Shown here piece by piece: positions 6,130 to 28,936 of a stretch of DNA of 32,130 nucleotides. This stretch comes from Bacteroidota bacterium (GTDB lineage: Bacteria > Bacteroidota > Ignavibacteria > UBA10030 > UBA8401). The position numbers and the translations under genes are program-made. Every line of letters starts with the position of its first letter. Position 1 is the stretch's first letter. The stretch is taken from assembly GCA_008933835.1 (NCBI GenBank), contig WBUG01000037.1:1-32130 (forward strand). The letters run 5' to 3'. Under the pieces are notes generated by a model that did no database searches, was not told the origin of the DNA, and saw nothing but the letters and a program-made list of their open reading frames with translations.

Positions 6130-9066
6130 TCACCGGCCGGCCGGAATGCGCGCGGTGACGGCGGCGCCCTCCCCGGGCCGGGTATCGATCGTGAGCGTTC
6201 CCCCCGCTTTCTCCGCCCGCTGCCGCATGTTCGTCAGGCCGTTCATGCGCGGAAGGTCGTCGGGCAGGAAGCCGGCCCCGTCGTCCGCGACGGTGAGGGT
6301 GAGCCAGCGGTCCCGGTGCTCCACCGACAGGGTGACGGAGCGTGCGCCGGAGTGCCGCACCGCGTTCGTCACCGCCTCTTTCACGATGAGCAGCACGGTG
6401 CGGATGCCGTCCGAACCGACCGGCGCATGCTCCGTTCCCGGCGCGATGCGGATGGTGAGCGCCATCTCGCGCGCCTCGCACATCTCCGTGGCGAACGCGG
6501 TGACGCGGTGGAGGAGGCGCTGCATGGACATGTTCTTCGGGTCGATGGAGAAGACGACGTCACCCATGGCGTCCACCAGCTCGCGCGAGATGCTCCCCAC
6601 CTTCTCGGTGAGCGCGGGGAGCGAGAAACGGGGATCGTCGGCGCCGCGGGATCCCTCCGCCTGGCGCCGCAGCAGGTCGCTGATGAGGGCGATGCGGGTG
6701 AGTCCGGAACCGATGTCGTCGTGAAGGTCCGCCGCGATGCGTGAGCGCATCTTCTCCAGCTCCAGCAGCCGCCGGACCCGGATGCGTTCCGCCCCCGCGA
6801 GCAGTGCGATGAACAGCGCCGCGGCGCCGGAGAGGAACCACCACTGCCGCCAGTACGGTGCGGCGATATCGAACACGAGCTGCGAGGTCTCCGCGGATGC
6901 GTTCCCGTCCCGGTCCGTCGTCCGGACGAGGAACCGGTATCCTCCCGGCGGAAGCGAGGCGAACGTCACCGCCCTCTGCATCGTGGGGGTGTGCCATCCG
7001 GTGTCGGCCGGTTCCAGTCGGTATTGGAAGAGGAGCGCGCCGGGTTCCGAGAAACGGACGGCGGTGTACTCCAGGGACACGGTGTTCTCTCCCGCGGAGA
7101 GCCGGAGCTCTTCATCGCTGAGGGGGCGTTCCTGTCCGTTCACTGTGAGCGACGTGAACTGCACCGGAGGGAGCACCGGTTCGCTGAACCGCACCGGCGT
7201 TTCGAACGCCACCGCTTCGAAGCGCGTGACCGCGTACGACGTACCGCGGTGGGACCAGACGGTGTTCACCGGAGCGGGTACCGCCGAACGGACCGGCAGG
7301 AAACGCACATCCGTCTCGTCGGGCACCGCCATGACGCCGGCCTGCGAACCGATGAGCAATCCCCCCTCCTCCGTCGCGTGCAGCGACCAGATCTGGTTCG
7401 TCAGCATCCCGTCCGCCGTCGTGTACCGGCGCACCGTTCCGCCGGCGATGCGTACGAGCCCGCCGTACCGCGTGCCGAACCAGAACGCGCCGCCGCGCGT
7501 CTGTACCGCGCTGCGGTACGTGCCGTACGGCAGCAACGCCCGCACCGTATCGGCCGGATCCTGCCGGTATCCGTCGCCGTCCGGCACGAACGTCTCAACG
7601 CCGGGATCGAATCCGAGCCCCCACACGCGCCCGCGGGCGTCCTCGGAGAACTCCCGCACGTCGCGGAGCGAGGTCTGCGAAGGATAGTCGAAGCGCTGCA
7701 GCAGACGGGGAGGACCGTTCACGTCCACCACCGCCGCGCCCCCGTCCTTCATGCAGTACCAGAGCCGGTTCCGCCGGTCCGCCATGAGCGTCACCGTCAA
7801 CGCCTTCGGGAATCCCCCCGCGGTGTCGAGACGGTACTCCAGCTTGAGGTCCGACGCCGAATGCGGGGTACGCTTCACCGAAACGCACTGCAGCGCGCCG
7901 TCCGGCACGGTGCACCAGAGCCTTCCGCGCGCATCGAACGCGAGGGCGACGGGAGAGAGGTAGCCTTTCGTGGAACCGACGAGATGGTACTGCCGCTGCC
8001 ACCGGTCCGAGGTGTCGCGGAAGAACTCGTACAGTCCGTGGTCCGACGCCGCCCAGAGATGTCCGGCGGTGTCGACCGCCGCCTTTCCGGTGAGTCCGGA
8101 GAGGGCGAAGAGCGTCGTCTTCGCCGGCTCGATCTTCGTCAGCCCGCGGCCGTTGGTGCCGCACCAGACGTTGTCCTCGCGATCGAAGAAGAGGGCGGTC
8201 ATCTCGTTGGCCGGCAGTCCGTTGTTCGTCGTCAGCAGCCGCTCGTCGAGCCCGAGGGCCGGAGGGGTGTGGAGGAAGAGTCCGGACGGTGTCGTCGTCC
8301 AGTACCGTCCGCGATGGTCCATCGTCACCATCGCCGCCACCTTCGTCGGAAGGACGATGGTGTGAACGACGCGCTTGTCCCGGACGATGCGGACGGACGC
8401 ACCGGCGACGGAGACCGCCACCGTGCTGTCCGGGAGCGGCGTCACCGCCAGCACGCTGTCGTCGGGAACGCCGGGGATGTCCGCCGGTGCGAGCGACTCG
8501 GTCCGCTCGTCGAAGATCCAGAGCCGCTGCTCGTCCGAACACCAGAGTCGTCCCTGCGCATCGCGGACCAGCGAGACGTACTGCGACAGTTCCGGCGTCG
8601 CCACTTTCGTCATGCTCCGCTCCCGGAACCGGTAGATGCCGTCATCGGTGGCGCACCAGAGCGTCCCTCCCTCCCCCTCCACGACGGAGTTCACACGGTC
8701 CGCCCGCATCGTTCCCGCCACAGGCATCGGCTCCATCACGCCCCGGCGGAACCGGACGAGCCCGCCGCCGTTCGTGGCGATCCACATCGTTCCCGGTTCG
8801 CTCCGGCTTTCGATGACGGCGTTCACCCGTCCCCATTCCCGCACATCGCCGAGCCGGTGATTACGGAATTGATATCCGTCGTAGACCGACACCCCTTCGT
8901 CCGTTCCGATCCACAGGTAGCCGCGGGTGTCCTGCGCGATGGCGCTCACGGAGTTGGAAAGCAGTCCGTCCCGCGTGGTATATACCTGCACCGGCAGACG
9001 CTGGGCCGTCAGCTCCGGTGAGAGATTGAAGATGAAAATGACGAAAAACAGCCGGTTTCGACTCAT
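6130..9066 (-). CDS. Periplasmic-propeller sensor histidine kinase (Reg_prop, Y_Y_Y, HisKA_3, HATPase_c)
   Basis: 978 aa. A signal peptide or anchor (residues 1-21) leads into a run of Reg_prop repeats filling about 25-640, with motifs such as RGYLWIGTDEGVSVYDG, GTMWIATNGGGL, DNVWCGTNGRGL and GAFWFGTRYGGL. This predicts two seven-bladed propellers. A Y_Y_Y immunoglobulin-like domain (about 645-735, ending GYRFLVRTTDRDGNAS) precedes the transmembrane helix at about 742-761. The HisKA_3 dimerisation helix has phospho-acceptor His782 in AADLHDDIGSGLTRI. The ATPase domain has an N box KEAVTNAVRH near 896 and DDGAGF near 928. It is a classical rather than hybrid kinase, because its regulator is the separate gene downstream. 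The ligand is unknown; in Bacteroidetes this architecture often senses glycans. It is transcribed divergently from the CarH-like gene. Confidence 0.92.
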   Translation of the reverse strand: MSRNRLFFVIFIFNLSPELTAQRLPVQVYTTRDGLLSNSVSAIAQDTRGYLWIGTDEGVSVYDGYQFRNHRLGDVREWGRVNAVIESRSEPGTMWIATNGGGLVRFRRGVMEPMPVAGTMRADRVNSVVEGEGGTLWCATDDGIYRFRERSMTKVATPELSQYVSLVRDAQGRLWCSDEQRLWIFDERTESLAPADIPGVPDDSVLAVTPLPDSTVAVSVAGASVRIVRDKRVVHTIVLPTKVAAMVTMDHRGRYWTTTPSGLFLHTPPALGLDERLLTTNNGLPANEMTALFFDREDNVWCGTNGRGLTKIEPAKTTLFALSGLTGKAAVDTAGHLWAASDHGLYEFFRDTSDRWQRQYHLVGSTKGYLSPVALAFDARGRLWCTVPDGALQCVSVKRTPHSASDLKLEYRLDTAGGFPKALTVTLMADRRNRLWYCMKDGGAAVVDVNGPPRLLQRFDYPSQTSLRDVREFSEDARGRVWGLGFDPGVETFVPDGDGYRQDPADTVRALLPYGTYRSAVQTRGGAFWFGTRYGGLVRIAGGTVRRYTTADGMLTNQIWSLHATEEGGLLIGSQAGVMAVPDETDVRFLPVRSAVPAPVNTVWSHRGTSYAVTRFEAVAFETPVRFSEPVLPPVQFTSLTVNGQERPLSDEELRLSAGENTVSLEYTAVRFSEPGALLFQYRLEPADTGWHTPTMQRAVTFASLPPGGYRFLVRTTDRDGNASAETSQLVFDIAAPYWRQWWFLSGAAALFIALLAGAERIRVRRLLELEKMRSRIAADLHDDIGSGLTRIALISDLLRRQAEGSRGADDPRFSLPALTEKVGSISRELVDAMGDVVFSIDPKNMSMQRLLHRVTAFATEMCEAREMALTIRIAPGTEHAPVGSDGIRTVLLIVKEAVTNAVRHSGARSVTLSVEHRDRWLTLTVADDGAGFLPDDLPRMNGLTNMRQRAEKAGGTLTIDTRPGEGAAVTARIPAGR

Positions 9067-9091
9067 ATCCCCATTGTACTCATTTCCCGCC

Positions 9092-9120
9092 TTGTTTGAA
9101 ACTAAATCAATGTGTAGCTT
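9092..9120 (+). promoter_or_regulatory. Candidate promoter of the CarH-like/carotenoid operon
   Basis: TTGTTT (9092-9097), a 17-bp spacer and TAGCTT (9115-9120) lie in the short AT-rich gap (9067-9163) between divergent genes. The -10 match is weak. The predicted start of transcription falls at the palindrome 9129-9143. Confidence 0.35.
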
Positions 9121-9128
9121 GTTAAAAC

Positions 9129-9143
9129 ATGCAAATCGTGCAT
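9129..9143. promoter_or_regulatory. Palindrome ATGCA-N5-TGCAT in front of the CarH-like gene
   Basis: ATGCA (9129-9133) and TGCAT (9139-9143) are perfect inverted arms with a 5-bp spacer, ending 20 bp before the ATG at 9164. The position suits an autorepression operator. A near-identical 15-mer (12 of 15 bases) occurs at 14501-14515. Confidence 0.4.
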
Positions 9144-9163
9144 CTCACTCTATTATTGTTGCC

Positions 9164-10072
9164 ATGAGATCGGGACTGCTTTCGACCGCCGAGGTCTCCA
9201 CCATGCTGAAGGTGAACGAATCCACCGTGAAGCGGTGGACCGACAAAGGTTCGCTCAAGTGCATCAAGACCCCCGGCGGTCACCGGAAGTACAAGATGAA
9301 GGATGTGGTGGAGTTCATGGACACGTTCGCCTATGACGTCTCCGAACTCCTCGCGCCGGGGAAGGAACAGCTGAGCGCCATCACAGTGTCGACGGACTAC
9401 GCCATCCTCTCCAAGGATTACGACGTCCTCGCCGAGATGCTCTACAACAACGTGCTGGAAGGGAACCGCGAGAACACCTTCCAGTTCCTCAGCCTGCTCT
9501 ACGCCAACCGCATCTCCCAGACCGACATCTTCGATCGGATCCTCTTCCCCGCCTTCTTCCGCATCGGCGTCAAGTGGATGAACGGCGAGATCGGCGTGGA
9601 ACAGGAGCACCTCGCCTCCAACACCGCCATGCACGCGGTGATGAAGCTGCAGGAACACGTGGTGAAGAAACCGAAGCACGGCGGCATCGCCCTGCTGGGA
9701 TGTCTGGAGGAGGAATACCACGAGATGGGGATCGCGTGCGTGAACGCGGTGCTCGAGGCGGGCGGATGGAGCACGTACTACCTCGGCGCCAACGTGCCGA
9801 CCGAATCGTTCATCGACGCGGTGGAGAACTACGTTCCGGACCTCATCTGCGTCTCCTCCCTCACCCCGAGATCAAAACGCTGGCTGGTGGAGCAGTGCGG
9901 CGCGCTGCGCGAAACGGCGCTCATCATCGGCGCGAAGCTGGTGGTGGGGGGAGCCGCCGCGTCCGACGCGCTCAAGAAGAAGGTGCCGGCGGACTTCGTG
10001 CCGTCCAGCATCGCCGAACTGAACGAGTACGCCGCCGCCCTGCCGCGGAAGAACGCCCCAGCCCGTGCGTGA
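9164..10072 (+). CDS. CarH-like B12-dependent photoreceptor transcriptional regulator
   Basis: 302 aa from the ATG at 9164; an earlier in-frame ATG would add residues before the HTH. Residues 5-45 form a MerR/excisionase-type winged HTH (LLSTAEVSTMLKVNESTVKR, then TPGGHRKYK). Residues about 75-165 are the helical B12-binding cap domain and 172-290 the Rossmann-type cobalamin domain. Two hallmarks of adenosylcobalamin photoreceptors are present: W138-x9-E148-H149 (WMNGEIGVEQEH) and the ExHxxG cobalt-ligand motif E184-Y-H186-E-M-G189. In Thermus CarH the residue after the Trp is the His that ligates cobalt after illumination; here it is Met139. Known relatives are tetrameric repressors in the dark that release carotenoid genes in light. 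The downstream overlapping gene is a carotenoid-type oxidoreductase, which supports the same role here. Confidence 0.85.
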   Translation: MRSGLLSTAEVSTMLKVNESTVKRWTDKGSLKCIKTPGGHRKYKMKDVVEFMDTFAYDVSELLAPGKEQLSAITVSTDYAILSKDYDVLAEMLYNNVLEGNRENTFQFLSLLYANRISQTDIFDRILFPAFFRIGVKWMNGEIGVEQEHLASNTAMHAVMKLQEHVVKKPKHGGIALLGCLEEEYHEMGIACVNAVLEAGGWSTYYLGANVPTESFIDAVENYVPDLICVSSLTPRSKRWLVEQCGALRETALIIGAKLVVGGAAASDALKKKVPADFVPSSIAELNEYAAALPRKNAPARA

Positions 10073-11522
10073 AGAGTTCGACCATATCGTCATCGGCGCG
10101 GGGATGGGTGGCCTGGCCGCCGCCTGCCTGCTGGTGAAGAAAGGACGACGCGTGCTGCTGCTCGAAGCGCACACCGCGGCGGGAGGCTGCGTGTCGTACT
10201 TCGCGCGGAAGAGGTTCCTCTTCGACGCCGGCGCCACGACGCTCAGCGGCATGGGACACGAACAGCCGGTGCAGCGCCTGCTCCGCACGCTGGGACTGGA
10301 CCTCCCCGTGCGCCGGTGCGACCCCGGCATGATCGTCCATACGGCCGGCGGTGCGATACCCCGCTGGAGCGACCCCGAACGGTGGGGCGAGACCGCCGCC
10401 CGCACGTTCGGAGGAGCGCGGCAGCGCGCGTTCTGGTCCAAGGTCCGCGAGGTCTCCTCCGAAGGATGGCGCGCCTCCGCGGCGCTCCCTTTCCTGCCGC
10501 TGGACTCCCTCTCCGCCGTCGCGTCGCTGCCCGGAGCGTTGCGGTTCGCGCCGCTCGGCCGGCATCTTTTCCGCTCCGTCGGCGACGTGCTGCGGGAACT
10601 CGGCCTCGGCGACGACCGGCGTTTCCGTTCGTTCATCGCCGAACAGCTCCTCATCACCGCGCAGTCGGACCCGGACGATACGCCGTTCCTGGTCGGGGCA
10701 ATGGGACTGGAGTATCCCGCGGACACCTGGTACGTCGACGGCGGACTGAACGCGCTGGCCCGCGCGATGCAGCAATGGTTCACGGAGAACGGCGGCACGC
10801 TGATGCTCCGCACCGCGGCGCTCTCGGTGCAGACCGGTCCGGTGCACGCCGTCACCACCGACACGAAGCGGGTCTTCCATGCGCGGAGCGTCATCTCCAA
10901 CGCCACGGGATGGAGCAACCGCGAGCTCTTCCCGTCGATGCAGCGCTTCTTTGACAAGGAATACGCCGGACTCGCCGGATGGGGCGCATTCACGTTGTAC
11001 GTCGGCCTCCGGAACGAATTCGACGACGGCGGCTCGCCGTTCCATCAGATCATCACCGACGAGCCGCTCCCGGTCACCGGCGGACGTTCGTTCTTCCTCT
11101 CCTTCTCCCATCCACAGGACGCTTCACGCGCTCCCGAAGGATACCGTACGCTCACCGTCTCGACCCATGTTCCCGACCCGCACCGGTGGCGCGAGCTGCC
11201 GGAACGGGAGATCGCCGAACGGAAACAGGCGCTGACCGACGCCGCTTTGGCGATCATCGGACTCCATCTTCCCGGATTCGCCGGTGCGGAGAAACCGGTG
11301 GTGATGACCGGAACGCCGGTGACGTTCGAGCACTTCACCCGCCGGCCGTTCGGTCAGGTGGGGGGCATCCCGCATTCCATGCATCGTCCCCTCTTCGCCT
11401 GGCCGGGCTGGCGTACCGGCACCAAAGGGGTCTCGCTCGTCGGTGACACGGTCTATCCCGGACAAGGAATCCCCGGCGTCTTCCTCGGCGCGCTGAACCT
11501 CGTCCGCGCTCTCGAATCCTGA
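10065..11522 (+). CDS. CrtI/CrtD-like FAD-dependent carotenoid desaturase/isomerase
   Basis: 485 aa, GTG start at 10065 overlapping the end of the CarH-like gene by 8 bases, so the two are translationally coupled. The N-terminus has the dinucleotide-binding motif IVIGAGMGGLAAACLL and the following EAHTAAGGCVSYF strand-loop. FLFDAGATTLSGMGHEQPV follows, as in phytoene desaturase, carotenoid isomerase and CrtD relatives. The C-terminus has the conserved FAD contact GDTVYPGQGIPGVFLGALNL. The length fits the family (about 480-510). Which carotenoid bond is acted on cannot be read from sequence; the N-terminal motif looks closest to cyanobacterial CrtD/CrtH types. Non-carotenoid members of the family exist, so the role rests partly on the neighbouring light regulator. 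Confidence 0.75.
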   Translation: MREEFDHIVIGAGMGGLAAACLLVKKGRRVLLLEAHTAAGGCVSYFARKRFLFDAGATTLSGMGHEQPVQRLLRTLGLDLPVRRCDPGMIVHTAGGAIPRWSDPERWGETAARTFGGARQRAFWSKVREVSSEGWRASAALPFLPLDSLSAVASLPGALRFAPLGRHLFRSVGDVLRELGLGDDRRFRSFIAEQLLITAQSDPDDTPFLVGAMGLEYPADTWYVDGGLNALARAMQQWFTENGGTLMLRTAALSVQTGPVHAVTTDTKRVFHARSVISNATGWSNRELFPSMQRFFDKEYAGLAGWGAFTLYVGLRNEFDDGGSPFHQIITDEPLPVTGGRSFFLSFSHPQDASRAPEGYRTLTVSTHVPDPHRWRELPEREIAERKQALTDAALAIIGLHLPGFAGAEKPVVMTGTPVTFEHFTRRPFGQVGGIPHSMHRPLFAWPGWRTGTKGVSLVGDTVYPGQGIPGVFLGALNLVRALES

Positions 11523-20383: not shown

Positions 20384-21121
20384 TCAGCGGGCGCGGTCCT
20401 TCTTTTTCACGGTCGGGGCAACGTCCGAAACGACCCGCAGCGTATACCCGACGCCGCGGGTGTTGACGATGGAGACGTTCCGGTCGGAACGGAGATGCTT
20501 CCGGAGCTTGGTGATGTAGACGTCCATGCTGCGGGCGTTGTAGTAGGTGTCGCTCCCCCACGCCTGGGCGAGCACCGTATCGCGCGGTACGGGCCGGTTG
20601 AGATGCGCGGCGAGGATGCCGAGCACCGCCGCCTCTTTCGCGGTGAGAGTCACGCTCCCTCCTTCCCCCGTCAGGAGTCCGCGTGCGGTGTCGAACGAGT
20701 ACTTGCCGATCGGGACCACGGGAGGTGGCGGGAGGCCGGTCGACGGGGAACTTCTCCGGAGCACGGCATGGATGCGCAGCAGCAGTTCCTCCATGCTGAA
20801 CGGCTTCGTGACGTAATCGTCCGCACCGATGGTGAGTCCCTCGATGCGGTCCTCCTTCAGCGACCGCGCGGTGAGGAAGATGACCGGCGTGTCGCGGTCG
20901 GTCCGCCGCAGTTCCCGCACGGCGGAGAAGCCGTCCTTCTTCGGCATCATCACGTCGGCGATGACGAGGGCGAACCCTCCCTTCCGGAGCGCCGCCAGAC
21001 CGCTCTCGCCGTCCGTGCAGAGCGTCACGGTGAAGCCGTTCATCTCCAGATGTTCGCTCAGGATGAAGCCGAGGTTCGGGTCGTCCTCCATCAGCAGGAT
21101 GGAACGGCGGCGCGCGGTCAT
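20384..21121 (-). CDS. OmpR/PhoB-family response regulator
   Basis: 245 aa. The receiver domain (1-120) has MEDDPN, phospho-acceptor Asp56 in LVIADVMMPKKDG, the switch Thr in VIFLTARS and Lys in DDYVTKPFSMEELL. The winged-helix output domain (about 148-232) contains TLTAKEAAVLGILAAHLNRP, the recognition helix ARSMDVYITKLRKHLRSD and the wing INTRGVGYTL in the form IVNTRGVGYTL. A basic tail (KKKDRAR) follows. The ATG overlaps the kinase stop as ATGA, so the pair is co-translated. Such regulators bind tandem direct repeats at a 10-11-bp spacing, and exactly such a site lies upstream of the kinase gene at 22757-22791. Confidence 0.93.
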   Translation of the reverse strand: MTARRRSILLMEDDPNLGFILSEHLEMNGFTVTLCTDGESGLAALRKGGFALVIADVMMPKKDGFSAVRELRRTDRDTPVIFLTARSLKEDRIEGLTIGADDYVTKPFSMEELLLRIHAVLRRSSPSTGLPPPPVVPIGKYSFDTARGLLTGEGGSVTLTAKEAAVLGILAAHLNRPVPRDTVLAQAWGSDTYYNARSMDVYITKLRKHLRSDRNVSIVNTRGVGYTLRVVSDVAPTVKKKDRAR

Positions 21122-22716
21122 CTCCCGCTCCCGGCCGCCGGCAGCAGCACGTCGACGGTGGTCCCCTCCCCCGGCACGCTGTGGATGGAGACGCTGCCGC
21201 GGTGGAGCTCCGTGACGAGCTTCACGTAGCTCAATCCCAGACCGAACCCCTTCACGTCGTGCGTGTCGCCCGTCGGGACCCGGTAGTACTTCTCGAAGAG
21301 CCGCGGCAGATGCTCCTTCGCGATGCCGATGCCCCGGTCACGCACGGTCACCGCCAGCATCCCGTCACGGTCGGCGGTCGTGACCGTGACGGCGGGGGGA
21401 CCGGAGGAGTACTTCACGGCGTTGTCGAGGATGGTGTGCACGATGTTCGAGAGGTGGACCGGGTCGCCGGTGATCGTCGAACCGGCCGCATCGGTCCTGA
21501 CCGTGACGCTCCCCCCGCGCTGCTCCGCCGCCACCGCGGCGACGGAGGCCGCCTGCCGCACGACCGCGTTCATCTCCACCGGCTCCCGCTTCATCGCCGC
21601 ATCCCCCTCTTCGAGCACCGCGATCTGCAGCACCTTCTCCACCTGGCGCTTCATCCGCGCGTTCTCCTCCGCGATGACCCGGTTGTAGCGTGTCAGCCGG
21701 TCCCGGCTCCGCGCCGTCTCCGGACGCGCGATGGCCTCGGACGCCAGTGCGATGGTGGAGATGGGGGTCTTGAACTCGTGCGTCATGTTATTGATGAAGT
21801 TCACCAGGGACGACGCGGCCCGGCGCTGCGCGGCGAGGGTGCGCAGCACCGTCACGAACGCGGCCGCCGCCACAGCGATGAAGAGGCCCGAGAGCGACAG
21901 CAGCAGCGCCATCTCGCCCAACAGGTACGATGTGCGGTCCGGAAAGAGGACCGACAGCCGGTACTTGGACGAGAGCATGTCGTTGGGATAGAGCCGCGTG
22001 CTGAGGGACGAGGAGCGCAGCGCGTCCAGCCGGAGGGAATCGTTCGCCATCGCGGCGGTGTCGCCGCCGAACACGGCGTACGCGTACGGCAGACGGATGC
22101 CCGCTTCCGCGAACGAGCGGGCGAGCTGCGAATCGAGCCGGGCGCGTTCGAGCCGTTCGCCGAGCGGCTTCGTCTCGAGCAGGAAGAGCTTGTCCACCAC
22201 CTGCGACACGATGGCTCCGCGGCGGCGGCGGGCGGTGTCCTGCAGCACCAGCCGCACCGAATCGTCGAACGTCGCCGTCATCGTCATCCCCGGATCGCCG
22301 GTCCGGTACCGATAGCTCGAGGCGATGCGCCCCCCGCCCGGGCGGCCGTTCACCATCACCCGCGTCAGCGTGTCGATGCCGGAGGAATGGAACACCTCCA
22401 CCCGCATCGTCCCGTCCGTCCGGCCGGTGTCGGTGAAGACCCAGGAGAAGTTCTGTGCGGTCTTCACCGTCTTCCGTTTTCGGGAGGGGGGCGCCGGAGG
22501 GACCTGCATCGCCACACTGAAGATCTTCGACGCGGCTTCGTCCTTCTCGAGGGACTGTGCTGCGTCGTTCAGCGCCACGAGCACCGTGCGGTCGAAGGCC
22601 TGTTCCTTTTCGCGGTAGGACGCCGACAACAGGTACACCTGCAGGGCGATGAGTCCCGCCAGGGAGACGGTGACAAGGATGATGACCGCCGGGATGCGGA
22701 AGCGTTCTCGTTTCAT
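21118..22716 (-). CDS. Membrane sensor histidine kinase (HisKA, HATPase_c)
   Basis: 532 aa from the ATG at 22716; a GTG 15 bases upstream would overlap the promoter. Transmembrane helix 1 (about 9-30) and helix 2 (about 258-285, MALLLSLSGLFIAVAAAAFV) bracket a periplasmic sensor of about 225 residues with no recognised domain. The HisKA helix has His313 in NNMTHEFKTPISTIALASEA. The ATPase domain has N box ILDNAVKYS, G1 VRDRGIGIAKEHLPRLFEKY and G2 KGFGLGLSYVKLV. This N-THEFKTP type is common in Bacteroidota. Coupled to the OmpR-type regulator by a 4-bp overlap; its promoter appears to be leaderless and autoregulated. Confidence 0.93.
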   Translation of the reverse strand: MKRERFRIPAVIILVTVSLAGLIALQVYLLSASYREKEQAFDRTVLVALNDAAQSLEKDEAASKIFSVAMQVPPAPPSRKRKTVKTAQNFSWVFTDTGRTDGTMRVEVFHSSGIDTLTRVMVNGRPGGGRIASSYRYRTGDPGMTMTATFDDSVRLVLQDTARRRRGAIVSQVVDKLFLLETKPLGERLERARLDSQLARSFAEAGIRLPYAYAVFGGDTAAMANDSLRLDALRSSSLSTRLYPNDMLSSKYRLSVLFPDRTSYLLGEMALLLSLSGLFIAVAAAAFVTVLRTLAAQRRAASSLVNFINNMTHEFKTPISTIALASEAIARPETARSRDRLTRYNRVIAEENARMKRQVEKVLQIAVLEEGDAAMKREPVEMNAVVRQAASVAAVAAEQRGGSVTVRTDAAGSTITGDPVHLSNIVHTILDNAVKYSSGPPAVTVTTADRDGMLAVTVRDRGIGIAKEHLPRLFEKYYRVPTGDTHDVKGFGLGLSYVKLVTELHRGSVSIHSVPGEGTTVDVLLPAAGSGR

Positions 22717-22721
22717 GCCGT

Positions 22722-22730
22722 AGTATACCA
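22722..22730 (-). promoter_or_regulatory. Extended -10 promoter of the kinase/regulator operon, predicting a leaderless mRNA
   Basis: Minus-strand TGGTATACT is an extended -10 element (TGnTATAAT type). Transcription would begin at about 22715-22716, on the ATG itself. The -35 position (about 22745-22750) is poor, and the four-box operator lies just upstream of it. Confidence 0.45.
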
Positions 22731-22756
22731 CTCCCGCCGGAAAGATGCCTCCCCCG

Positions 22757-22791
22757 TTAACACTATTTAACGTCCGCTAACACTCATTAAC
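22757..22791. promoter_or_regulatory. Four tandem [T/C]TAAC boxes at exact 10-bp period: OmpR-type regulator operator
   Basis: TTAAC at 22757, TTAAC at 22767, CTAAC at 22777 and TTAAC at 22787 are each separated by 5 bp, placing all on one helix face. On the minus strand this is GTTAR-N5 repeated four times, the same layout as PhoP, PhoB and CpxR boxes. It lies between the divergent kinase and PDZ operons. Confidence 0.7.
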
Positions 22792-22820
22792 TATGAAAAC
22801 CGCATCCACCGCCGTATCAT
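22792..22820 (+). promoter_or_regulatory. Promoter of the PDZ/NEW3 operon
   Basis: TATCAT (22815-22820) lies 17 bp after a poor -35 (TATGAA, 22792-22797) that directly adjoins the last TTAAC box. Transcription would start near 22827, leaving a 38-nt leader with AGGAG before the GTG at 22865. A weak -35 touching the operator suits regulator-dependent activation. Confidence 0.4.
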
Positions 22821-22864
22821 GCTCCATCGTCATTTCCATCCACCATCACCGTTCAGGAGCCGCC

Positions 22865-23590
22865 GTGAAACCGTTCATCCTTCTCTTCGCTTTTCTCGCT
22901 CTGACCGCCGGAGCCGCGCAGGAGCCGAAGCGCATCACCCGCACCATCTCGCCGGACGACGCGGTCATCCTCCGCGAGATCGGCGCGGTCATCATGCCGA
23001 AAGAGGGATCGCTCGTCATCGAGGTCGTGCTCGGCAACACCGGCCAGCAGGAAGCGGACATCAAGGCGCAGGACGAGGTGCTGATGGCGAACGGCAAGCG
23101 GGTGAAGTCGCTCAAAGACCTGCGTGAACAGTACGACGACGCGCCGGTCGGGAAGGAATTCAAGATCGGCCTGAAGCGCGGGGAGAACCTGCAGATCGCG
23201 CGGTTCATCCGCAAGAGCGAAGAGGAACTGAATCAGGGTGGCGGGGGCGGCGGAGGCCGGACGATGACCTTCCGTATGGAACGCAAAGAAGGGGAAGAGA
23301 TGCTGCCGGCGCTCGGACTCGGCGTGTTGACGAAAGAAGGACGCGCCGTCGTCGGGAACGTCCTCCCCACCGCGGGGAACAACTTCACGGCGTTCACGCC
23401 GAAAGAGGGGGACGTCATCGTATCGCTGAACGGTACCGCCGTCGCATCGTCCGAAGCGTTCGTGAAAGGATACGACGGGCTGAAGGAAGGGGACGCCGTG
23501 ACCATCGTCTTCCGCCGCGGAGGGAAGGAATCGTCCGCCTCCTTTAAAAAACCGAAACCGATGGGCCGCATGATGATGATCACGAAATGA
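22865..23590 (+). CDS. Exported double-PDZ protein
   Basis: 241 aa from a GTG at 22865, chosen because AGGAG lies 5 bp upstream, the signal peptide starts there (MKPFILLFAFLALTAGAAQ) and the likely transcription start lies beyond the ATG at 22793. PDZ-like domain 1 (about 35-118) contains IKAQDEVLMANGKRVKSLKD. A glycine-rich linker (seven Gly, about 125-131) leads to PDZ-like domain 2 (about 148-225) with TPKEGDVIVSLNGTAVASSE. No serine-protease domain is attached, unlike DegP/HtrA, so it should act as a periplasmic adaptor binding protein C-termini. Its stop overlaps the next ATG (ATGA). It opens the operon that is divergent from the kinase. Confidence 0.8.
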   Translation: MKPFILLFAFLALTAGAAQEPKRITRTISPDDAVILREIGAVIMPKEGSLVIEVVLGNTGQQEADIKAQDEVLMANGKRVKSLKDLREQYDDAPVGKEFKIGLKRGENLQIARFIRKSEEELNQGGGGGGGRTMTFRMERKEGEEMLPALGLGVLTKEGRAVVGNVLPTAGNNFTAFTPKEGDVIVSLNGTAVASSEAFVKGYDGLKEGDAVTIVFRRGGKESSASFKKPKPMGRMMMITK

Positions 23591-25092
23591 GACACCGGGC
23601 GTTCACCATCGCATGCTGTCTGGCGCTGCTGACGGCGTTCGTTCCCGAACCCGTCCCCGCCCAGGCGAACCCGTATTTCAACCAGCGGGACGACAAGTAC
23701 CGCCTGCTCGGACTCAAACGCGCCAAGGAGGCGTACGAGTACAGCCGGCGCGAGTTCGACCGGCAGCAGGACCTCTATAAGAAGGGACTCCTCTCCCAGG
23801 CGGAACTGGAACGCTCGCGCGTGACGTTCGCCGACGCCGAGGTGAACTACCAGCAGTCGCTCCTGGCGGTGCTGTTCGAGACGCAGTTCATCTCGGTGGA
23901 AAAGGCGGTGAAGTACCAGAGCGCGGACGGACGGAAGCACGTGCGCCTCACCCTCGTGAACACCTCCGGCGGGAACGCCGAATTCCAGAAGCTCGTGAAG
24001 ATGGAGGACCAGCTCTTCCGCTCCCTGCAACCGGACGTCATCCCCAACATCTACGTCTCCATCGCCAACGGCGAGAACGCCATCATCAGCCAGCCGTACG
24101 AGGCGAAGATCGACGAGCTCCGGTTCGGGCGGCCCCAGCCGCTGGACTTCGTGCTGCTGCAGGACCTGGACGCCGTCACCGTCAACATCATCTACGGCAA
24201 CGGCTCCACCCGCAGCATGAAGATCTACCTGCAGAAGGACGCGTCGCAGAACCGGGTGCTCGTGCAGTCCCAGCAGTTCTCGCAGGAGGGGGAGCTCGGC
24301 AAGTCCGCCTCGTTCGACCTCACGCTCGAGCTCTTCAGCGGCACCGTGAACACGTTCGGCCTGGAGGTGGTGAACCTTCCGCCGCAAGTGGACCGGTTCT
24401 TCAAGGACCCGCAGACGCAGGCGCGGCTCAGCCAGTTCAAGTTCATCGAGAACGCCAACACGCGCCGGGCCGCACTGGAGGTCTCGCTGCCGGACCGTCC
24501 CACGAGCGACATCGTCATGGGCCGGCCCATCCCCTTCTACGTCCTCGTCATCCCGCGGGACCGGATGGAGGAGTTCCGCACCGCCGCGCCGAAGCAGTGG
24601 ACCGCCGAGGAGATCGAACGGCTCAACGTCGGCTATGTGAAGCTGGAGCTCGTCCCCCGCGGCAAGGGGCGCCTCCTCGTCCGCGCGCCGCAGCTCTTCC
24701 ACTCCATCAAACCGGACGGCACCGTGCGCCTGACGGTGGAACTGGTGAACGAAGGGACGCGCCGTCTGGACAACGTGCGCATCGAGGCGGACGTGCCGCT
24801 CAACTGGACCAAACGTATCGAACCGGCGGTGCTCCCCTCGCTCGACATCGCGGAGGAGCAGCGCGTGACGCTCGAATTCACCCCTCCGGCCGGCATCCCG
24901 AGCGGACGCTACGAAGTGCGGCTCCGGACCAGCGCGCTGTCCGACAATCAGCCGGTGAACGGCGAGGACAAGAGCGTGACGGCCGAGGTCCTGCCCGAAA
25001 CGAACGTGGCCGGAACGCTCATCATCGTGCTGCTCATCCTCGGCGTGGTGGGGGGCATCGTGTGGTACGGCGTGCGGTTATCGAAACGATAA
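23587..25092 (+). CDS. Membrane-anchored NEW3-domain protein with N-terminal coiled coil
   Basis: 501 aa. The signal peptide (to about residue 26, VPAQ) is followed by a strongly charged helical hairpin (about 38-95; AKEAYEYSRREFDRQQDLYK then KGLLSQAELERSRVTFADAE) like those of membrane-fusion (HlyD-type) proteins. A long beta-rich middle part follows, then a NEW3-like immunoglobulin fold (about 375-465; VRLTVELVNEGTRRLDNVRI, PLNWTKRIEP, VTLEFTPPAGIPSGRYEV). The C-terminal transmembrane helix (about 475-495) and basic tail would anchor it with the bulk outside the cytoplasm. NEW3 proteins often accompany ABC-2 transporters, and one starts 190 bp downstream. It is coupled to the PDZ gene by ATGA. 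Confidence 0.75.
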   Translation: MRHRAFTIACCLALLTAFVPEPVPAQANPYFNQRDDKYRLLGLKRAKEAYEYSRREFDRQQDLYKKGLLSQAELERSRVTFADAEVNYQQSLLAVLFETQFISVEKAVKYQSADGRKHVRLTLVNTSGGNAEFQKLVKMEDQLFRSLQPDVIPNIYVSIANGENAIISQPYEAKIDELRFGRPQPLDFVLLQDLDAVTVNIIYGNGSTRSMKIYLQKDASQNRVLVQSQQFSQEGELGKSASFDLTLELFSGTVNTFGLEVVNLPPQVDRFFKDPQTQARLSQFKFIENANTRRAALEVSLPDRPTSDIVMGRPIPFYVLVIPRDRMEEFRTAAPKQWTAEEIERLNVGYVKLELVPRGKGRLLVRAPQLFHSIKPDGTVRLTVELVNEGTRRLDNVRIEADVPLNWTKRIEPAVLPSLDIAEEQRVTLEFTPPAGIPSGRYEVRLRTSALSDNQPVNGEDKSVTAEVLPETNVAGTLIIVLLILGVVGGIVWYGVRLSKR

Positions 25093-25282: not shown

Positions 25283-26014
25283 ATGAGCGTTCACACGATG
25301 CTGGAAGCGGTCAACCTCTCCAAGCGGTACGAGGACGGCGCGCTGGCCGTCGACGACGTCTCCTTCTCCGTCCGTCCGGGCGAGATCTTCGCGATGCTCG
25401 GGGGGAACGGCGCGGGCAAGACCACCACCATCAACATCTTCCTGAACTTCCTGGAACCGACCGCGGGAGAGGCGCGCATCAACGGCATCGCCGCCCACCG
25501 GGCGCCGCTGGAGGCGAAGCGGCACGTCGCCTTCGTCTCGGAGAACGTGATGCTCTATCCGACCTTCACCGCAGTGCAGAACCTGGACTACTTCGCCCGG
25601 CTGGGCGGCAAGACACAGTACACCGCCGACGACTACCGCCGCGTGCTGCTCCGCGTCGGTCTGCAGGAGGAGGCGCACCACAAGAAGCTGAAGGGATTCT
25701 CCAAGGGGATGCGCCAGAAGTGCGGCATCGCCATCGCCATCCTGAAGGACGCTCCGGCCATCCTGCTGGACGAGCCGACCTCCGGACTGGACCCGAAATC
25801 CGGTTTCGAGTTCATGCAGCTCCTCGGTTCGCTGCGGGACGAGGGGAAGGCGGTGCTCATGTCCACCCACGACATCTTCCGCGCGAAGGAGACGGCGGAC
25901 ACCATCGGCATCATGCGGCAGGGACGCCTCGTGATGCAGCGTTCCCGCGCCGGACTGGCCGGTGAGGACCTGGAGCGGCTGTACATGGAACACATGGCCG
26001 GCGTGCACGAATAA
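25283..26014 (+). CDS. ABC transporter ATP-binding protein
   Basis: 243 aa, start ATG at 25283 with AAGGAG upstream. Walker A is GGNGAGKTTT (about residues 40-49), the signature is FSKGM (about 138-142, replacing LSGGQ as in many ABC-2 exporters), Walker B is AILLDEPTSGLDP and the switch His is in MSTHD. It is a single nucleotide-binding domain of the size usual for ABC-2 systems. It must work with the two permeases that follow, 9 and about 1,455 bp downstream. By family this is an exporter or an extracytoplasmic remodelling complex; the cargo is not known. Confidence 0.93.
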   Translation: MSVHTMLEAVNLSKRYEDGALAVDDVSFSVRPGEIFAMLGGNGAGKTTTINIFLNFLEPTAGEARINGIAAHRAPLEAKRHVAFVSENVMLYPTFTAVQNLDYFARLGGKTQYTADDYRRVLLRVGLQEEAHHKKLKGFSKGMRQKCGIAIAILKDAPAILLDEPTSGLDPKSGFEFMQLLGSLRDEGKAVLMSTHDIFRAKETADTIGIMRQGRLVMQRSRAGLAGEDLERLYMEHMAGVHE

Positions 26015-26023
26015 GGAGGACCC

Positions 26024-27442
26024 ATGCTCGTCCACATCATCGAAAAGGAACTGCGGGACATCGTCGGCTCCGCCAAGTTCGCGGTCAACTTCTCCATCGG
26101 CACCGCGCTCATCCTTCTCTCCTTCTACACCGGCGCGCAGAACCACCGCATCGCGCAGGAACAGCACGAAGCGGCCCTCGCCGCCAACGTACGGCAGTAC
26201 GAGGGGGTCACGGACTGGATGCGCGTGCAGTCCTTCCGTATCTTCCTCCCCCCGCAGCCGGTCGCCGCGCTCGTCAACGGCGTCTCGAACGACATCGGCC
26301 GCACGGTGGAGGTGCGCGGACGGGGGGAACTGCGCTCGCAGGACAGCCGCTACGGCGACGATCCCATCTTCGCCATGTTCCGGTTCCTGGACCTGGACTT
26401 CATCGTCACCGTCATCCTCACCCTCTTCGCGGTCCTGTTCGGCTACGATGCGGTCAACGGCGAGAAGGAACGCGGCACGCTCCGCCTCACCTTCGCCAAC
26501 GCCGTGCCGCGGACGGTGTTCATCACGGGCAAGTGCGCCGGGACGTTCCTCGGACTCGCCGTTCCGCTCATCATCCCCTTCCTCCTCGGCGCGCTCCTCC
26601 TTCCCGTGTTCGGCGTGCCGATGTCCGGTCCCGACTGGACCGCCCTGGCGCTCGTCACGGGGGCGGGACTGCTCACCATGGGCGCGTACCTCCTGCTGTC
26701 GGTCTGGGTCTCCGCACGCACGGAACGGAGCTCCACCTCGTTCCTCGTGCTGCTCTCCGTCTGGATCATGACCGTCATCGTCCTGCCGAGGCTCTCGGCG
26801 GCGGGGGCGGACCTGTTCGTGTCCGTACCGAGCATGGACGAGGTCAATTCGCAGAAGAGCCGGTTCATGTCCCAGCTCTGGAACGAGGACCGCACCAAGA
26901 TGAACGGCTTCACCCCGGCGAACAAGGGGGACGTGCAGGAGGTGATGAAGGAGTTCAACCGGTACATGCAGACGCTGGCGGACGACCGCGAGAAGCGGTT
27001 CAACGAGTTCGCCGGCCGGCTGAACGAGGAGCGGGCCAACCGGCAGATGGAACACCGGCGTCTGACGCAGTACCTCTCTTGCCTCTCCCCCGCCGCCCTC
27101 TTCACCCTCGCCGCGTCGGAGCTGGCAGGAACCTCGCTGCGGCTGGAGGAGGAATACCTCGCACAGGCGCGGGAGTACCAGAAGGAGTACGCCCGGTTCA
27201 TGAAGGAGAAGACCGGGACGAACACCGGCGGATTCGCCATGGTCTTCCGGATGGTCACGGACGACAACGCCGAGAAACCGAAGCCCATCAACATCGCCGA
27301 GGTGCCGGCGTTCCGGTTCGTCCCCCCGGCCGCGGAGGCGGGACTCCCACCGTTCACGATCTTTTCAGGCACGATCGCTTTGTACGCGCTCCTTTCCTTC
27401 GCCGGAGCGTACCGCGCATTCCGGACGTACGACGTCCGCTGA
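26024..27442 (+). CDS. ABC-2 type permease with large extracytoplasmic insert (first paralogue)
   Basis: 472 aa, with AAGGAGG directly upstream. An N-terminal transmembrane helix (about 20-38) is followed by an extracytoplasmic segment (about 40-125). Then come helices at about 127-150, 172-197, 205-232 and 240-262. A second large hydrophilic and partly coiled insert (about 265-445; RFNEFAGRLNEERANRQMEH) precedes a last helix (about 448-466). The cytoplasmic loop YDAVNGEKERGTLRLTFANA is the ABC-2 coupling-type motif. The layout matches DUF3526-like permeases. It shares blocks of near-identical sequence with the next gene, so the two are a tandem duplication and probably a heterodimer. Confidence 0.85.
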   Translation: MLVHIIEKELRDIVGSAKFAVNFSIGTALILLSFYTGAQNHRIAQEQHEAALAANVRQYEGVTDWMRVQSFRIFLPPQPVAALVNGVSNDIGRTVEVRGRGELRSQDSRYGDDPIFAMFRFLDLDFIVTVILTLFAVLFGYDAVNGEKERGTLRLTFANAVPRTVFITGKCAGTFLGLAVPLIIPFLLGALLLPVFGVPMSGPDWTALALVTGAGLLTMGAYLLLSVWVSARTERSSTSFLVLLSVWIMTVIVLPRLSAAGADLFVSVPSMDEVNSQKSRFMSQLWNEDRTKMNGFTPANKGDVQEVMKEFNRYMQTLADDREKRFNEFAGRLNEERANRQMEHRRLTQYLSCLSPAALFTLAASELAGTSLRLEEEYLAQAREYQKEYARFMKEKTGTNTGGFAMVFRMVTDDNAEKPKPINIAEVPAFRFVPPAAEAGLPPFTIFSGTIALYALLSFAGAYRAFRTYDVR

Positions 27443-27469: not shown

Positions 27470-28936
27470 ATGCTCGCCACCATCATCGTCCATGAACTGA
27501 AGAACATCCTCTTCAGCCCCAAGTTCTCCGTCACGGTCGCCGTCGCCTCCGTGCTCCTGCTCCTCTCCGTCGTCGCCGGCATCGGCCAGTACCGGGCCGC
27601 GGCGGCGCAGTACGAGACCACCACGCAGCTGGTGCAGCAGGAGATGCGCGAGGCGAGAGGCTGGATGGCGCTCACCAACAAGGTGCTGCGCCGGCCGGAC
27701 CCGATGCAGATCTTCGTCTCCGGCGTCGCCAACGACGTGGGACGCCTCTCCGGCGTGAACGCGTTCCAGGCCGTGAAGCTGTCGCACAGCACCTTCTCGG
27801 ACGACCCGGTCTACGCGGTGTTCCGCTTCATCGACCTCTCGTTCATCGTCGCCGTCGTCTTCTCGCTGTTGGCGGTCCTCTTCACGTATGACGCGGTGAA
27901 CGGCGAGAAGGAGCGCGGAACGCTCCAGCTCACCTTCGCCAACGCCGTGCCGCGCGCACAGTACATCCTCGGCAAGTTCGCCGGGGCGTGGCTGGGACTG
28001 GTGCTGCCGCTGCTGGTGCCGATGCTCCTCTCGCTGCTCCTCCTCGCGGTGACGGCGGTGCCGATGACCGCGGAGGAATGGGGACGCACCGTCCTGCTCT
28101 TCGGCGGCGCGGTGCTGTACGTGACCGTGTTCGTCGCGCTCGGCATCCTCCTCTCCACCCTCACCCCGCGCTCCTCCGCGTCGTTCCTCTACGCGCTCGT
28201 ACTGTGGGTCTGCGCGGTCTTCATCGTCCCCCGCGCCGGCACCACGCTCGCCGGACATCTCGTGCCGGTCCCCACGGTGGCCGAGACCGAAGCGCGGCGC
28301 GACGCCTTCGCGAAGGACCGGTGGGCGCAATACGAGGCGCAGATGCAGTCACGCTGGAAGGAACGGAACGCTCCGCTGGAGGGGATGACCAAGGAGGAAC
28401 GGGAGGCGTACCGGGACGAAAAGATGTGGGAGTGGATGGAGCAGGACGACCAGGACCGGAAGCAGGTGCAGACGGACATCGACGAACAGGCGCGCCGGCT
28501 GACGGAGGAACTGCGGAACCGGCGGATGGAGCAGGAGCGGCTCGCGTTCACCCTCTCGCGCCTCTCCCCCGCGTCGTCGTTCCAGCTTGCGGCGATGAAC
28601 CTCGCCGGCACCGACATCGCGCTCAAGACGCGGTACGAGGACGCGCTGAACGGCTACCGCACGCTCTTCAACGAGTACAAGGAGAAGAAGGCGAAAGAAT
28701 CGGGGAACTCCGGCGGATTCCGCATCGAGGTCAACTCCGACACCGGAGTGAAGATCGACGCGGGAAGGGAGCGCGGGGTGCTGGACCTGACCGGCATGCC
28801 GCAGTTCACGCATCCCTCCCCCTCCGCCGCCGAAACGATGCGCTCCGCGTTCATCGACCTCGGCCTGCTCGGCCTCTTCTCCCTCGCCGCCTTCGCCGGA
28901 GCGTTCGTCCGCTTCCTCCGCTACGATGTGCGGTGA
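27470..28936 (+). CDS. ABC-2 type permease with large extracytoplasmic insert (second paralogue)
   Basis: 488 aa. Same order of helices and inserts as its neighbour: anchor helix (about 20-38), first insert (about 40-125, with VSGVANDVGRLSG against VNGVSNDIGRTVE), membrane core with YDAVNGEKERGTLQLTFANA, then a long charged insert (about 265-455, rich in Glu/Arg/Gln and probably coiled coil) and a last helix (about 459-478). The start follows the previous stop by 27 bp with AGGA upstream. It is the last gene of the plus-strand operon. The inserts could contact the NEW3 and PDZ proteins encoded upstream. Confidence 0.85.
   Translation: MLATIIVHELKNILFSPKFSVTVAVASVLLLLSVVAGIGQYRAAAAQYETTTQLVQQEMREARGWMALTNKVLRRPDPMQIFVSGVANDVGRLSGVNAFQAVKLSHSTFSDDPVYAVFRFIDLSFIVAVVFSLLAVLFTYDAVNGEKERGTLQLTFANAVPRAQYILGKFAGAWLGLVLPLLVPMLLSLLLLAVTAVPMTAEEWGRTVLLFGGAVLYVTVFVALGILLSTLTPRSSASFLYALVLWVCAVFIVPRAGTTLAGHLVPVPTVAETEARRDAFAKDRWAQYEAQMQSRWKERNAPLEGMTKEEREAYRDEKMWEWMEQDDQDRKQVQTDIDEQARRLTEELRNRRMEQERLAFTLSRLSPASSFQLAAMNLAGTDIALKTRYEDALNGYRTLFNEYKEKKAKESGNSGGFRIEVNSDTGVKIDAGRERGVLDLTGMPQFTHPSPSAAETMRSAFIDLGLLGLFSLAAFAGAFVRFLRYDVR

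Follow-up and report, generated by a model that had tools for sequence, protein, structure and literature searches.

Sites for OmpR-family response regulators such as OmpR and CpxR of Escherichia coli are built from tandem direct repeats with a period of about 10 bp, and at some promoters they hold several dimers. Published work on relatives shows that OmpR/PhoB-family dimers bind paired direct repeats; E. coli ArcA uses two to five direct repeats, and four consecutive ones are protected as expected for two dimers (PMC3798270). The PhoB-like SphR of cyanobacteria binds tandem CTTAACCT direct repeats, the Pho boxes, upstream of the operons that it activates (PMC1906773). Within the Bacteroidota, a report on Riemerella anatipestifer PhoP gives a DAP-seq motif, described as ArcA-like, in which TTTAACA are the most conserved letters, and finds this regulator bound upstream of the operon that encodes it and also upstream of GLPGLI, outer-membrane and ABC genes (PMC9603813). 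Nearest by family to the regulator discussed below is RprY, of the RprXY system of Bacteroides and Porphyromonas; a limited look at the RprY literature turned up no binding motif for it.

The locus considered here belongs to a Bacteroidota genome and lies in a window of 32,130 nt, by which we mean the whole stretch of DNA that was analyzed. Four YTAAC boxes start at 22757, 22767, 22777 and 22787 of this window, forming an array of 35 bp with an exact 10-bp period, just as the original prediction had described them. They lie between two divergent gene sets, laid out as follows.

20384–21121, minus strand: RprY-like OmpR-family response regulator, the proposed binder (Pfam Response_reg and Trans_reg_C)
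21118–22716, minus strand: sensor histidine kinase (Pfam HisKA and HATPase_c; two membrane helices flanking a periplasmic part)
22722–22727, minus strand: TATACT, predicted −10 of the kinase/regulator operon, 29 nt from half-site 1; no −35
22757–22761, plus strand: half-site 1, TTAAC; TTAAC in 39 of 44 aligned loci
22767–22771, plus strand: half-site 2, TTAAC; TTAAC in 44 of 44 aligned loci
22777–22781, plus strand: half-site 3, CTAAC; NTAAC in most of the 44 loci, relatives varying at the first base
22787–22791, plus strand: half-site 4, TTAAC; TTAAC in 39 of 44 aligned loci
22802–22806, plus strand: GCATC, between half-site 4 and the PDZ −10, where relatives show a weakly conserved GCAAC
22815–22820, plus strand: TATCAT, predicted −10 of the PDZ operon, 23 nt after half-site 4; no −35; predicted transcription start at about 22827
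22865–23590, plus strand: first gene of the proposed target operon, encoding a secreted two-PDZ protein (Pfam PDZ_2, two stretches; start chosen from sequence)
23587–25092, plus strand: NEW3-domain protein (Pfam NPCBM_assoc; AlphaFold2 model, mean pLDDT 79.9)
25295–26014, plus strand: ABC transporter ATPase (Pfam ABC_tran; listed open reading frame from 25283, first ATG at 25295 chosen)
26024–27442, plus strand: ABC-2 type permease 1 (Pfam ABC2_membrane_2 and DUF3526)
27470–28936, plus strand: ABC-2 type permease 2 (Pfam ABC2_membrane_2 and DUF3526)

Compared with the described systems, the array shares its general layout with the OmpR and CpxR sites, whose half-site sequences differ from its own. 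The succession of direct repeats matches ArcA, but ArcA acts globally and mostly represses, and its boxes are defined by an 11-bp center-to-center spacing, from which the array departs with 10 bp in nearly all aligned loci (some distant loci have boxes at 0, 10, 20 and 31). The half-site agrees with the Pho boxes CTTAACCT of SphR (PMC1906773), which differ in combining 8-bp boxes with 3-bp linkers (an 11-bp period) in three copies and in serving the phosphate regulon. It agrees as well with the TTTAACA of Riemerella PhoP, likewise an OmpR-family regulator of a Bacteroidota member, for which 583 peaks were counted genome-wide, in contrast to the one strong site in the genome of the window (PMC9603813). 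As to RprXY, TTAAC repeats often precede the kinase gene by about 40 bp at related pairs across the phylum, whereas the regulator of the window scores below the cut-off of the RprY family.

First, could the array be a chance repeat, or a low-complexity AT tract in a GC-rich genome? It is intergenic, and short AT-rich words are conspicuous in such a composition. Shuffling, however, fails to reproduce it: the window contains the four-box pattern a single time and its 100 dinucleotide shuffles not at all, and when the 150 bp from 22716 to 22865 were shuffled 20,000 times, two boxes fell in phase in 80 shuffles and three in none. The GC-rich window holds only six plus-strand YTAAC words, four of which are the boxes of the array. 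Because not even three boxes fall in phase in the shuffles and the word itself is so scarce, and with the boxes kept over 44 loci in spite of drift in the intervening letters, we regard chance as practically excluded. The original prediction had proposed that a genome-wide scan for the box would define a regulon. In the 3.57-Mb assembly, a three-box pattern allowing up to two mismatches matched the array and one chance-like place only (a reversed control pattern gave nine matches), two-box sites were indistinguishable from chance, and the array profile gave no second match at E values up to 10. With this single site in its own genome, no regulon can be defined at the profile stringency used, and the regulator looks local and dedicated, with one strong site per genome.

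Second, the genes on either side bear on what the array might serve. The original prediction had placed an OmpR-family regulator in the gene pair transcribed from here, and the Pfam domains of the gene at 20384–21121 bear this out. Its best NCBIfam match is RprY (NF051850); the score, 259.8 bits, is below the cut-off of 370, and hence formal membership was dropped and we call it RprY-like rather than a certified RprY. Its recognition helix, RSMDVFISKLRKYL, is near-invariant in loci with the kinase–regulator pair. The hydrophobic segments of the kinase span residues ~8–30 and 266–292. Across the array, the AlphaFold2 model of the NEW3 protein shows a helical hairpin at the N terminus, beta domains, and a membrane helix at the C terminus, which would be in keeping with the periplasmic part of an inner-membrane transporter. 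Its two-helix hairpin motif, KGLISQAELDRSR..FADAEVNYQQ, we presume to resemble those of efflux-pump membrane-fusion proteins; a Foldseek search with the model returned only generic strings of Ig-like domains, at TM-scores of ~0.25, and was uninformative on function. Elsewhere in the window (8927–11522), a MerR-type regulator with an apparent B12-binding domain adjoins a CrtI-like desaturase, an arrangement as in light-dependent carotenoid control.

Over 44 loci from several phyla, the window included, aligned on the array, the PDZ side has, counting from where box 1 begins, TA at exactly +58 in 40 loci and TAnnnT in 36, and the kinase side has TAnnnT 27–29 nt from box 1 in 38. Hexamers resembling TTGACA at 16–18 bp spacing reached mean best matches of 2.86 and 2.55 of 6 on the two sides, against 2.35 in shuffled sequence, so that a −35 is near background on both. 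The poor −35 foreseen for the PDZ operon is thus found there, but not as a one-sided trait, the kinase side being near background too. An extended −10, proposed for the kinase/regulator operon, was dropped: the TG is not a conserved feature in relatives. A Bacteroidota-type promoter would have TAnnTTTG and, upstream, a TTG element. The −10s are TATACT and TATCAT in the window and TAnnTT(T)G in several relatives, and an upstream TTG is present on the PDZ side in three and on the kinase side in six of the 44 loci. The kinase ATG lies 5 nt after its −10 in the window and about 6 nt after it in most of the 44 loci, and hence the kinase mRNA should be leaderless, with a predicted transcription start at its ATG, at about 22716. 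The longest frame for the PDZ gene opens at an ATG at 22793, upstream of the −10 of its own promoter, and for this reason the most likely start is the GTG at 22865, after AGGAG.

Third, the array is conserved together with the locus. Thirteen genomes of the order, among them the one the window comes from, retain the divergent kinase/PDZ–NEW3 arrangement, and phased boxes occur in all 13 orthologous intergenic regions, weakly in one (G035); in two genomes (G039 and G049) no PDZ gene was found, and the kinase is directly faced by the NEW3 gene. The original prediction would have fallen had the boxes been absent from orthologous loci; the array is present at every testable orthologous kinase/PDZ locus. 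A wider scan of GTDB representative genomes with a NEW3 alignment yielded 63 loci labeled Bacteroidota/Ignavibacteriota, KSB1, Zixibacteria, Calditrichota, Krumholzibacteriota and a few others, labels that may be wrong as the genomes are mostly metagenome bins. All four boxes are kept in 32 of the 44 aligned loci and box 2 is invariant; half-site 3 begins with C in 15, A in 10, G in 7 and T in 6. The base that follows is conserved as well, A after boxes 1–3 and T after box 4. Past the array, aligned position +45 is G in 30 loci and +47 is A in 33, which marks the GCAAC element; in many loci it lies 15 bp past the first base of half-site 4, offset from the array's phase by half a turn.

The array and the kinase–regulator pair are also present or absent together. 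With a sequence-only profile of the array and a threshold of at least 21 bits, 41 of the 63 loci score as carrying it; 40 of them show the kinase on the same contig, and in the other (L062) the contig ends before the kinase would be reached. None of the 16 loci that lack an ortholog of the pair, each with at least ~2 kb of upstream DNA, exceeds 14.5 bits, and the remaining six offer too little DNA to judge. The array thus occurs in 40 of 40 loci with the pair versus 0 of 16 without it (Fisher's test, ~2e-14, a figure to be read with the loci being related by descent and the joint array/kinase label changing only four times on the NEW3 tree). Among 60 relatives, the full array occurs once per genome, only at the kinase/PDZ–NEW3 locus and in kinase-bearing genomes, and the best match in relatives without the kinase is partial (E 0.018). 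One genome (G020) has a kinase fragment without an array, the match lying at a contig end. This co-occurrence bears on whether the array is instead read by some other DNA-binding protein, such as a second regulator of the OmpR family or of ArcA/PhoP type in that cell. The same half-site is used by two OmpR-family regulators, Riemerella PhoP and SphR (PMC9603813; PMC1906773). Yet the array and the pair occur or are missing jointly, and stay together even where the target operon differs, so that a foreign binder appears quite improbable. At two further loci, TTTAC repeats about 10 bp apart lie upstream of NEW3 (L044:1729–1768 and L076:4677–4716); these PDZ/NEW3 loci have a different or no matching regulator, the helix in L076 being STRTVDVHVAWLRQKLE, and the repeats are possibly a diverged version of the four-box switch.

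We file the array, as a predicted operator, under the general class of OmpR-family direct-repeat operators. Such operators have at least two head-to-tail half-sites about one helical turn apart (here four, at 10 bp), a linked winged-helix OmpR-family regulator (here adjacent, 40/40 versus 0/16), and a place directly before a promoter whose −35 is weak (here with gaps of 23 and 27–29 nt).

We infer binding, the number of dimers, the dependence on phosphorylation and the sign of regulation from this sequence evidence, and give a probability of roughly 0.82 to the array being the operator of the neighboring RprY-like regulator, two dimers of which would activate the PDZ/NEW3/ABC operon and probably the regulator's own genes. 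The four half-sites (TTAACA), repeated head to tail at roughly every helical turn, would hold the two dimers side by side, on boxes 1–2 and 3–4, and the one array would be common to two divergent promoters, neither with a −35. Toward PDZ, 23 nt separate the end of half-site 4, at about position −36, from the −10, and from there an OmpR-family dimer could engage RNA polymerase; with the array edge within reach of the polymerase, the regulator would be expected to activate the PDZ/NEW3/ABC operon. Toward the kinase, the edge lies 28–29 nt before the −10, at about −41, which would fit autoregulation, probably positive. Two −35-less promoters with array edges at about −36 and −41 would, if the sign is read correctly, offer what OmpR-family activation needs. 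The earlier claim that the regulator activates both itself and the PDZ operon is largely supported, and better so than when it was made, its kinase side less surely than its PDZ side. Because the array has a fixed polarity and unequal gaps, 23 nt toward PDZ and 28–29 nt toward the kinase, regulation of the kinase promoter may take another form or be almost absent.

Might the same regulator bind the array and instead repress one or both promoters, for example by activating the PDZ operon and repressing its own, or by repressing both until a signal arrives? The gaps to the two −10s do differ, P. gingivalis RprY has been reported as a repressor of chaperone genes (PMC3646045), and among direct targets of Riemerella PhoP in the deletion strain, 34 rose and 16 fell (PMC9603813). 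Against this, neither promoter has a −35, and the boxes sit upstream and leave the core promoters uncovered, a layout that favors activation, at least of the PDZ operon. We consider the other sign unlikely, if still deserving of weight, and retain activation by the RprY-like regulator as the preferred reading.

Finally, the operator recurs in distant Bacteroidota facing other genes. The array profile was searched with strict filters, under which absence is weak evidence, against 395 genomes drawn from the phylum, and 31 of them gave a match at E ≤ 0.005, where about 2 would be expected by chance. Around matches outside loci of the window type, 32 stretches were examined; in 20, the array lies directly upstream of a related kinase–regulator pair, with the same box orientation relative to the kinase, and most of these keep gaps of 22–23 nt and 27–29 nt to two −10s. 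Nearly all the regulators concerned have the recognition helix RS(M/L)DV(F/Y)...(K/R)LR. The divergent genes there encode a GLPGLI protein and a TonB-type outer-membrane barrel in several families, family-less secreted proteins in another and, in one case, a T9SS-sorted protein. At RprY-family loci picked regardless of boxes, two TTAAC boxes lie near the kinase in only some, which makes the four-box form a subset of the RprY family. Two matches in one genome (L195 and L206, both in G152) each read TTTAACAnnnnTTAACAnnnnTTAACTAAAA and adjoin no such kinase–regulator pair; they are possibly members of a larger regulon in that genome. With geometry and helix kept while the divergent genes differ, the cassette would keep its operator and change its target. 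That a kinase, a regulator and a rigid, bidirectional operator of four half-sites are inherited as a portable unit across Bacteroidota and neighboring phyla, with the far-side operon exchanged, is a proposition to which we give about even odds.

In the open-access literature searched, no prior report of the array was found. The array is ordinary in kind and is notable for its conservation and its swapped targets. RprY-like regulators form a large group, so far little studied, in Bacteroidota and related phyla that are known chiefly from metagenomes; for them the array provides a candidate DNA target. It also links a sensor kinase with an uncharacterised envelope operon, PDZ/NEW3/ABC. The far-side operons seen, namely the PDZ/NEW3/ABC transporter, GLPGLI with an outer-membrane barrel, and lineage-specific secreted proteins, form a natural series in which the operator geometry is fixed and the facing operon replaced, useful for questions on the transferability of two-component promoters. 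If the portable-unit reading is true, what is conserved would be the promoter geometry, and what varies, the regulated genes.
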